Shown: piece by piece, positions 9,181 to 11,235 of the stretch | How the letters are laid out: every line of letters begins with the position of its first letter | How positions within the stretch are numbered: position 1 is the stretch's first letter | Origin: Clostridia bacterium | Lineage (GTDB): Bacteria > CBDUZB01 > JAGLHV01 | Length of the DNA stretch: 11,313 bases | NCBI GenBank assembly: GCA_030595925.1 | Contig: JAUVLC010000079.1 | Coordinates: 1 to 11,313, forward strand | Direction: 5' to 3' | Translations under genes and position numbers: made by a program | Notes under the pieces: generated by a model | Database searches by the model: none | Told to the model about the DNA's origin: nothing | What the model saw: the letters and a program-made list of their open reading frames with translations, nothing else

Positions 9181-10770
9181 TTAACCCTCCAGAATAGCCT
9201 CTGCTTCCTGACGATAAGCATCCATCACATAAGGTATTCCCGATACTTTAGCTGCTTCCTGAGTAAGTGCGGTAACATCTTTTCTGGAAATAGTTGAAAG
9301 CTTAAAATTTCGGGTACCGGCCATTAACTGCTGCAACCCTACTTTTATTTTCTGTGAAAAACAATAAATCCCGATAGCACCTAATGGAATATCTTTTATG
9401 TCTTTCCCATATTCATCAACCAACTCTTCATAACAAACAAAGATTTCTTCTGCTGTTTTTCCGTATTGAGAAACCGTTTTGGGTAAGTTGTTTTCTTTCA
9501 TCCATTGACCAATATTTTTACCTACCATTCCGGGAATCATTAGTGCTCTGCCCATACAAACAGCTTTGGTATAGGGTGCACCCATAGACAGCACTTTAAA
9601 TACATGATCTTCAGTGGAAAAACCACCGGCGATAGCAATATCCGGAACACGCATTCCCTTTTTAGTTAACTTCTCACAAATCTCCTGGGTCAATGACTGC
9701 AAATAGAATGTGGGAATACCCCATTCCTGCATCATTCTCCATGGACTCATTCCTGTTCCACCCGGAGCACCATCAATGGTTAAGAGGTCAATGTTAGCAA
9801 TTGAACAATACTTAATTGCCATGGCCAGTTCTCTCATCGGATAAGCACCTGTCTTTAAAGTAACACGTTTAAAACCAAGTTTTCTTAAACGTTCTACTTC
9901 GGACAAAAAACCTTCTTCGGAAACAAATCCAAGACGGGAATGCCGTTCAAATTCCTTAATTTCGCCAACCCGATATGCTTCCTTCACTGAATGGACTGTT
10001 GGATCCGGAGTAACGATATACCCACGTTTTTTAAGTTCCAATGCCCTTTCAATACTTTTTACTTTAATTTCTCCACCAATACACTTTGCCCCCTGTCCCC
10101 ATTTCAACTCAATTGTTTCCAACTTATGTTTATTTAACACATATTCGGCAACACCCAGACGGGTATCTTCCACATTCATTTGAACTAATATTTCACCATA
10201 GCCACCGTGAAATTTTCTGTAAGTTTCGATTCTACGATCCATATCAGGAGCATTTTTAACTTTACCTTTAGCATCTAACTCGAGTTTTGGATCAATTCCA
10301 CAGACATTTTCTCCGCAAACCAGGGTTACCCCGGAAATTGCGGCCCCAATGGCAAAATGTTCCCAGTTTTTACGGGCAATTTCCGTAGAACCCAATGCCC
10401 CGGTAAAAATAGGTACTTTCAGTTTTACTTTCTTGTCCCAACCATATTCGGTTTCAGTTCTCACAGCCGGAAAAGTTGCCGTATCCGGTCCTGCTTCGAC
10501 TCCTTCAGGAAGTCCTTTTGCCCCCATTGCATATCCTAAAATGTTAAGATGTGAATAATCTATAGGATACTCTTTATCTCCTCCGGCAGTAATATCTCCG
10601 AAAGGTCCCGGATAAATCACTTCCCGTCCTCTAAACGTTGCTTTAAAAACATCGCAGTTACCACGACATCCGTCAATACACCGGGTACAAAGTCCTGAAC
10701 CCGGAGAAACATTTCTTGACCGGTTTGAAGTCTGTATTGCTTCATTTGCATTTGGTTGTTGTAAATTCAT
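9181..10770 (-). CDS. Glutamate-synthase-like FMN-binding protein (GltB2-type domain), 529 aa
   Basis: A cytosolic flavoenzyme with the FMN-binding TIM-barrel domain of the glutamate synthase large subunit. Motifs: ELKWGQGAKC (221-230), TIDGAPGGTGMSP (331-343) for FMN/substrate, AGGFSTEDH (381-389) and GAPYTKAVCMGRA (397-409). It lacks the glutaminase domain, and the Cys-rich segment that binds the 3Fe-4S cluster in classical GltB is absent after CMGRA. Instead the N-terminus has CTRCIDGCRGNC (Cys28, 31, 35, 39), possibly an iron-sulfur site. Conversion of 2-oxoglutarate to glutamate is therefore only a family-based guess. The start is firm: AAGGAG (10778-10783) is seven bases from the ATG. 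A long leader with an antiterminator-like structure precedes it (10955-11073), consistent with nitrogen control. Confidence 0.9.
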   Translation of the reverse strand: MNLQQPNANEAIQTSNRSRNVSPGSGLCTRCIDGCRGNCDVFKATFRGREVIYPGPFGDITAGGDKEYPIDYSHLNILGYAMGAKGLPEGVEAGPDTATFPAVRTETEYGWDKKVKLKVPIFTGALGSTEIARKNWEHFAIGAAISGVTLVCGENVCGIDPKLELDAKGKVKNAPDMDRRIETYRKFHGGYGEILVQMNVEDTRLGVAEYVLNKHKLETIELKWGQGAKCIGGEIKVKSIERALELKKRGYIVTPDPTVHSVKEAYRVGEIKEFERHSRLGFVSEEGFLSEVERLRKLGFKRVTLKTGAYPMRELAMAIKYCSIANIDLLTIDGAPGGTGMSPWRMMQEWGIPTFYLQSLTQEICEKLTKKGMRVPDIAIAGGFSTEDHVFKVLSMGAPYTKAVCMGRALMIPGMVGKNIGQWMKENNLPKTVSQYGKTAEEIFVCYEELVDEYGKDIKDIPLGAIGIYCFSQKIKVGLQQLMAGTRNFKLSTISRKDVTALTQEAAKVSGIPYVMDAYRQEAEAILEG

Positions 10771-10797
10771 TTTTCCTCTCCTTTTAATAACTTCACA

Positions 10798-10939
10798 TAA
10801 ACTTCTGCAAAATAGCTTTTTATCTTTTTTGTCATTCCTGCGGAAGCAGGAATCTATTGATATTTAAAAAATTATAGATTTCGCATCATCCGCCTCAGGC
10901 GGAGCGGAATGACAGAATATTGTATTTTGCAGAACTCTT
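10798..10939. mobile_element. 142-base element with TTCTGCAAAATA ends and 10-base flanking direct repeats
   Basis: TTCTGCAAAATA (10803-10814) and TATTTTGCAGAA (10923-10934) are perfect 12-base inverted ends. TAACTTCACA occurs directly repeated at 10788-10797 and 10940-10949, with exactly five bases between repeat and inverted end on both sides. This suggests an insertion with a 10-base target duplication. It carries a GTCATTCC palindrome and lies in the leader of the glutamate-synthase-like gene. No protein is encoded. Confidence 0.7.
10831..10913. repeat. GTCATTCC-type extragenic palindrome, copy C, intact
   Basis: GTCATTCC (10831-10838) and GGAATGAC (10906-10913) are perfect inverted ends. 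Inside are ATTCCTGC/GCAGGAAT with a GGAA loop (10834-10853), AATCTAT (10851-10857) with ATAGATT (10874-10880), and CCGCCTCAGGCGG (10890-10902). It serves as the uninterrupted reference for copies A and B. Confidence 0.85.
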
Positions 10940-10954
10940 TAACTTCACACCCTT

Positions 10955-10993
10955 AAAAAAAATAAAAGTGCCCTTCTAATATCGGACCCCTTT
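10955..10993 (-). terminator. Leader intrinsic terminator, mutually exclusive with the second antiterminator hairpin
   Basis: On the minus strand AAAGGGGTCC (10993-10984) can pair with GGGCACTTTT (10973-10964) across a ten-base loop, with one mismatch and two G-U pairs. A T8 tract follows (10962-10955, after a single A). The 5' arm reuses the loop and 3' arm of the P2 hairpin at 10984-10997, so the two structures cannot coexist. Confidence 0.7.
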
Positions 10994-11019
10994 GTCCTTA
11001 CAATGCACACCATTGTGCA
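10984..11019 (-). promoter_or_regulatory. ANTAR-type dual-hairpin antiterminator RNA in the leader of the glutamate-synthase-like gene
   Basis: As minus-strand RNA: P1 is UGCAC, loop AAUGGU, GUGCA (11019-11004); a six-base linker UUGUAA follows; P2 is GGAC, loop AAAGGG, GUCC (10997-10984). Both hairpins have six-base loops with A at position 1 and G at position 4, the known recognition pattern of ANTAR-domain antiterminators such as EutV and NasR. P2 overlaps a terminator, as expected for that mechanism. P1 begins about 20 bases after the predicted transcription start. The P2 stem is only four pairs. Confidence 0.75.
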
Positions 11020-11044
11020 ATTTTTTTTCGTAAAAATATGCATT

Positions 11045-11073
11045 ATTATAAGTATTAAAGGTAACCTTGTCAA
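11045..11073 (-). promoter_or_regulatory. Consensus sigma-70-type promoter for the glutamate-synthase-like gene
   Basis: On the minus strand TTGACA (11073-11068) and TATAAT (11050-11045) are both perfect and 17 bases apart. Transcription would begin near 11037-11041, giving a leader of about 270 bases that carries the antiterminator, the terminator and the 142-base element. Confidence 0.85.
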
Positions 11074-11082
11074 GCTTTTTAA

Positions 11083-11116
11083 TTCGAGCTATTTGCGCTG
11101 TAAAAATAGCGTCGAA
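11083..11116. repeat. Imperfect 12-base inverted repeat just upstream of the -35 box
   Basis: TTCGAGCTATTT (11083-11094) pairs with AAATAGC (11104-11110), an unpaired G, and TCGAA (11112-11116). It lies ten bases upstream of the -35 box of the minus-strand promoter. It could be a regulator site or an element end; nothing in the sequence decides. Confidence 0.4.
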
Positions 11117-11235
11117 GAAACAAGAAATTAAAAATCACTTTACCCCAAAGTTTGCAGGGAAAGATGGATGGGAGGATGGTTAAAAAAGGAAATTCACCCC
11201 GGAGGTAAAAAAGGCAAAAAAAATAAAAAAAAAGC
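11117..11235. other. Intergenic stretch with nothing recognised
   Basis: This purine-rich sequence lies between two divergent promoters. TTTACC (11140-11145) and GGTAAA (11204-11209) are complementary but far apart. If the gene at 11299 is a transposase, the left end of its element should fall in or near this stretch; I could not place it. Confidence 0.4.

Follow-up and report, generated by a model that had tools for sequence, protein, structure and literature searches.

Organization of the gltB2 Leader

The window, i.e., the whole stretch of 11,313 nucleotides analyzed here, carries on its minus strand a GltB2-type glutamate-synthase-like gene of 529 amino acids (gltB2; positions 9181–10770), recognized by the Pfam profile Glu_synthase (PF01645; E-value 2e-17). 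No NCBIfam family was matched by this protein. The window GltB2 nests among those of Omnitrophota, adjacent to that of locus L006, and the phylum of the window genome is represented in the comparison set by three genomes of a single genus. Upstream of the gene, on the same strand, a putative sigma-70 promoter spans positions 11045–11073, with TTGACA at 11073–11068, a 17-base spacer and TATAAT at 11050–11045. It matches the consensus at 12 out of 12 positions and ranks at the top of 34 promoter-like sites scanned in the window, in line with the perfect promoter that had been claimed in the original prediction.

The promoter is followed by two hairpins on the minus strand. P1 (11004–11019) reads TGCAC[AATGGT]GTGCA, or UGCAC[AAUGGU]GUGCA as RNA, and is backed by sequence, fold and covariation. 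P2 (10984–10997), backed by sequence and fold, reads GGAC[AAAGGG]GTCC, or GGAC[AAAGGG]GUCC as RNA, and is the candidate antiterminator. Both bracketed loops carry A at position 1 and G at position 4 (A1/G4), and both are closed by AC/GU pairs (CAC..GUG in P1 and GAC..GUC in P2). The linker between them, TTGTAA (10998–11003), counts six bases, which is within the range of about 5–12 nucleotides expected of ANTAR-target RNAs. Indeed, linkers in the eut leaders of Enterococcus faecalis measure 5–12 nucleotides and induction is impaired at 3 or 14 nucleotides, while AC/GU closing pairs are required by EutV (PMC3369931). An intrinsic terminator hairpin (10964–10993) comprises the arms AAAGGGGTCC (10993–10984) and GGGCACTTTT (10973–10964) around a 10-base loop and leads into a T8 tract at 10955–10962. 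As had been proposed, the second hairpin overlaps this terminator: the 5' arm of the terminator consists of the P2 loop and the P2 3' arm, so that P2 and the terminator are mutually exclusive. The leader has all of the defining sequence features of an ANTAR-target RNA that were tested.

Downstream of the terminator, the rest of the 5' leader up to the start codon (10772–10954; about 184 bases, minus strand) consists largely of a repeat that blastn against 1.27 Mb of the same genome showed to be dispersed in many copies. Upstream of the promoter, a stretch at about 11085–11225 has 99% identical counterparts terminating no fewer than six further contigs of this genome and is probably the end of an insertion sequence.

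Motif Specificity and Folding

Hairpin pairs with A1/G4 loops had originally been taken as the pattern recognized by ANTAR proteins. The bare pattern occurs 94 times in 1.27 Mb of the genome versus 62–86 times in Markov copies. This is near chance in such an AT-rich genome, which makes A1/G4 a weak criterion on its own, and the bare scan was therefore dropped as a test. A looser scan allowing loops of six to eight bases was also dropped as too noisy (57 real matches versus 26 in Markov copies). The pattern does discriminate once AC/GU closing pairs are demanded as well: the window leader is then the only match in 1.27 Mb, versus none in five Markov copies. The motif scan covers these 1.27 Mb; about half of the genome is covered by the model search (see below) only.

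The region 10940–11040 folds better than 200 out of 200 shuffled sequences (z = −3.1). For the protein-free RNA, P1 combined with the terminator has an energy of −13.6 kcal/mol versus −11.5 kcal/mol for P1 combined with P2. The difference of about 2 kcal/mol in favor of the terminator fits the expectation for a default-off switch. Of the two six-base loops originally described, AAUGGU and AAAGGG are both present in the sequence, but RNAfold closes P1 by a further A-U pair, leaving a loop of four bases; the hexaloop of P1 is therefore to be read as the ANTAR-bound form. The terminator itself is modest, at about −7.3 kcal/mol with an internal G.A mismatch (fold of 10955–10993), versus about −10 to −24 kcal/mol in most related leaders, which counts against the proposed switch. 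Across the window, the number of terminators called by the scanner is at the shuffled level.

Related Leaders and Covariation

No Rfam family matches the window leader. Covariance models were built from the leaders themselves, R1 from seven leaders (P1 and P2) and R2 from 23 leaders. Scores of leaders used for training, among them that of the window, therefore follow from the way in which the models were built. Outside its training set, R1 matches leaders in Omnitrophota, for instance at loci L013 (8.6e-9), L008 (1.1e-8) and L024 (3.6e-7). The R1 leaders are sense-oriented and lie upstream of gltB2 or of an ANTAR gene that precedes gltB2, with five of them situated directly upstream of gltB2 (L006, L013, L056, L061 and L068). 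The nearest leader-bearing GltB2, that of L006, is encoded in the order gdhA, leader, gltB2, glnA and GAF-ANTAR. An ANTAR protein is encoded in 40 of the 50 genomes with a close gltB2 that were tested. The covariance search placed R2 leaders at 22 of 40 gltB2 loci from genomes with ANTAR versus none of 10 from genomes without (about p = 0.001 by hand calculation, not corrected for kinship). No leader was found with R2 at archaeal gltB2 loci.

The joint covariation score of P1 and P2 is 0.322 versus 0.189 ± 0.020 for shuffled alignments, with none of 500 shuffles scoring as high. This signal is carried by P1, in which five out of six pairs show two-sided changes. P2 shows no two-sided covariation; its sequence is conserved (GGAC-AAAGGC-GUU) with one-sided variation only, and its GAC-AAAGG-GT core is kept in related leaders. 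The elements on which the original prediction hinged are largely conserved, as related gltB2 leaders retain G4, the AC/GU closing pairs and the overlap between P2 and the terminator, and mostly A1; in three leaders (L013, L030 and L035), position 1 of the P2 loop is G. At one locus, L031, which was left out of the models, the terminator appears to overlap the first hairpin. The first hairpin of this variant leader (L031:2859–2934), GGAC[AAAGAC]GUCC, contains the 5' terminator arm, and the terminator loop encloses the second hairpin, ACAC[AAGGUU]GUGU. A second strong ANTAR-type leader is present away from gltB2 on the contig of Deltaproteobacteria CSMAG_2901 (L056:851–918, minus strand).

Within the window genome, the leader is the sole one found. 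A search for further dual hairpins near glnA, glnB or amtB had originally been suggested; none was found near glnA, amtB or P-II genes. Weak matches on three contigs were rejected as they represent one common repeat and have no terminator. This repeat, TATACAGTGACTGCATAAATTGACAAAGGTGTTATTAAAAT (L136, L137 and L143, on contigs C26, C5 and C48 of G000), resembles the P1/P2 core and is probably the end of a mobile element.

GAF-ANTAR Proteins of the Same Genome

Two ANTAR proteins are encoded in the window genome (E-values of 4.5e-23 and 1.5e-20), both composed of a GAF and an ANTAR domain in intact reading frames. The original prediction had pointed to an ANTAR response regulator or two-component pair. 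ANTAR proteins are indeed there, but the receiver domain (REC) that would relate them to the two-component type of EutV and GnfR is absent from both. Their ANTAR domains match those of Rv1626, EutV and NasR, and both keep a methionine aligned to Met172 of EutV, a residue indispensable for binding RNA (PMC8934654). ANTAR gene 1 (contig C157) starts just after the 3' end of a truncated glnA (L001:2205–2436), in which a fragment of an ISL3 transposase cuts off the body of the gene. ANTAR gene 2 (contig C129) is located about 3.7 kb downstream of a full-length glnA. The nearest named relatives of the GAF domain include those of PtsP and NifA, which makes nitrogen status a plausible signal. The genome also has amtB and four P-II genes. 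On another contig (C135; L265 and L266), nifH, two P-II (NifI-like) genes and a nifD-like gene are found, given which this lineage may fix nitrogen. In the sister genome G002, gltB2 is 98% identical and its contig stops 81 bases upstream of the gene, short of the leader. No ANTAR protein was detected in a search of this sister genome, which counts against the proposed regulation.

Omnitrophota Clusters and Loop-Size Variants

In many Omnitrophota, the gene order is gdhA, GAF-ANTAR, gltB2, a gene for an ECF-like sigma factor, amtB and P-II. In most Omnitrophota, the leader precedes the ANTAR gene in front of gltB2 rather than gltB2 itself, which counts against the reading proposed for the window leader. 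The cluster is seen at six loci (L019, L030, L034, L042, L017 and L023), where the ECF-like sigma factor of 175 amino acids, encoded beside amtB and the ANTAR gene, is a candidate second regulator. Loops of six bases are found in the window and in L056, L061 and L068, which are labelled Deltaproteobacteria. In 16 of the 23 aligned leaders (e.g., L008:1929–1971, L011:1441–1479, L024:1983–2022, L030:2069–2112 and L034:1982–2023), the P1 loop has seven bases in the pattern A-N-N-G-N-N-N, and in four (L014, L016, L021 and L054) the P2 loop has eight. These leaders retain G4 and the C-G closing pair. The seven-base P1 loops possibly represent a new variant; no paper linking ANTAR domains with Omnitrophota or with a heptaloop was found in a search of the available literature.

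A wider model can be drawn up for the Omnitrophota as a whole, to which we assign an even chance of being correct. In this model, a GAF-ANTAR protein whose gene mostly sits immediately before gltB2 would control its own synthesis via the leader of that gene and would run a nitrogen-assimilation regulon through leaders with a P1 loop of often seven and a P2 loop of sometimes eight bases, in which G4 and the closing pairs are kept. If true, this regulon extends the rule of hexaloop recognition by ANTAR domains. The natural seven- and eight-base variants could also help to find out how the size of a loop is gauged by ANTAR domains.

Proposed Mechanism and Alternative Explanations

The window leader is very probably a cis-acting ANTAR antitermination leader that controls gltB2, a reading derived from sequence comparison. 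Transcription would start about 20 bases ahead of P1. By default, the terminator is expected to form and RNA polymerase to halt at the T8 tract, leaving gltB2 off. An active GAF-ANTAR protein would bind P1 and then the P2 hexaloop, keeping P2 closed. The terminator would thereby lose its 5' arm and gltB2 would be transcribed. Both GAF-ANTAR proteins of the genome are likely regulators, and they would probably sense nitrogen status via the GAF domain. The original proposal of an ANTAR leader is supported overall, with regulation by an ANTAR protein predicted from sequence.

The most serious alternative is that the leader is a relic that came along with gltB2 from a cluster under ANTAR control and is now mainly a constitutive leaky terminator, with the linkage to the regulator broken by insertion elements. 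The weak terminator would fit such a history, as would the position of ANTAR gene 1 behind an IS-truncated glnA, the dispersed repeats within the leader with an IS-like repeat upstream, the lack of an ANTAR match in the sister genome and the occurrence of only one leader in the genome. Yet the loops, closing pairs, linker length and P2/terminator overlap are all intact, and so are both ANTAR reading frames; we consider a relic unlikely.

Functional antitermination by an ANTAR protein is also to be weighed against control by another type of attenuator (a riboswitch, a leader peptide or another RNA-binding protein) that shows hexaloops by chance. Such a coincidence gains some credit from the near-chance frequency of A1/G4 pairs without the demand for closing pairs, but no Rfam family matches the leader, and its core is conserved and P1 covaries across distant genomes, all of them encoding ANTAR, which leaves this explanation very improbable. 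The same holds, even more strongly, for an ordinary terminator with accompanying hairpins and no regulatory role. An AT-rich genome is rich in hairpins and the terminators scanned in the window are at shuffled level, but the single strict motif versus none in Markov copies, the fold z-score of −3.1 and the related leaders at the same gene, gltB2, render chance exceedingly improbable, and it is already disfavored.

Comparison with Known ANTAR Systems

ANTAR antitermination has been described chiefly in Firmicutes, Proteobacteria and Actinobacteria. The present leader belongs to the known kind of ANTAR-target RNA. Its likely regulator is a one-component GAF-ANTAR protein, and no earlier report for this lineage was found in the search of the available literature. 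It would place ANTAR antitermination centrally in the ammonium assimilation of Omnitrophota and a neighboring uncultured lineage, as a compact one-component system, made up of a GAF-ANTAR protein and a leader, that has regulator and target side by side.

GnfR of Geobacter sulfurreducens, reportedly described by Ueki and Lovley in 2010, is a two-component response regulator that exerts ANTAR control of nif genes. ANTAR control of nitrogen genes is common to both systems, whereas the two-component regulator and the nif targets differ. The nasF leader of Klebsiella shares a receiver-less ANTAR protein, NasR, and the control of nitrogen assimilation by antitermination, but NasR has a NIT sensor domain instead of GAF and acts on a nitrate assimilation operon. 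In the EutV/eutP leader of E. faecalis, the two hexaloops, the AC/GU closing pairs, a similar linker length and the mutual exclusion of P2 and terminator recur. In contrast, EutV is a phosphorylated response regulator, the signal is ethanolamine and four terminators are present per locus. ANTAR RNAs were predicted earlier before glutamate synthase genes in Desulfotomaculum reducens and before other nitrogen genes (Ramesh et al. 2012, PMC3369931). These share the dual A1/G4 hexaloops, the P2-overlapping terminator, glutamate synthase as a predicted target and the nitrogen theme; here, however, the lineage is another one, the enzyme is of the stand-alone GltB2 type, and the likely regulators are GAF-ANTAR proteins, the genes of which are direct neighbors of gltB2 in many Omnitrophota.
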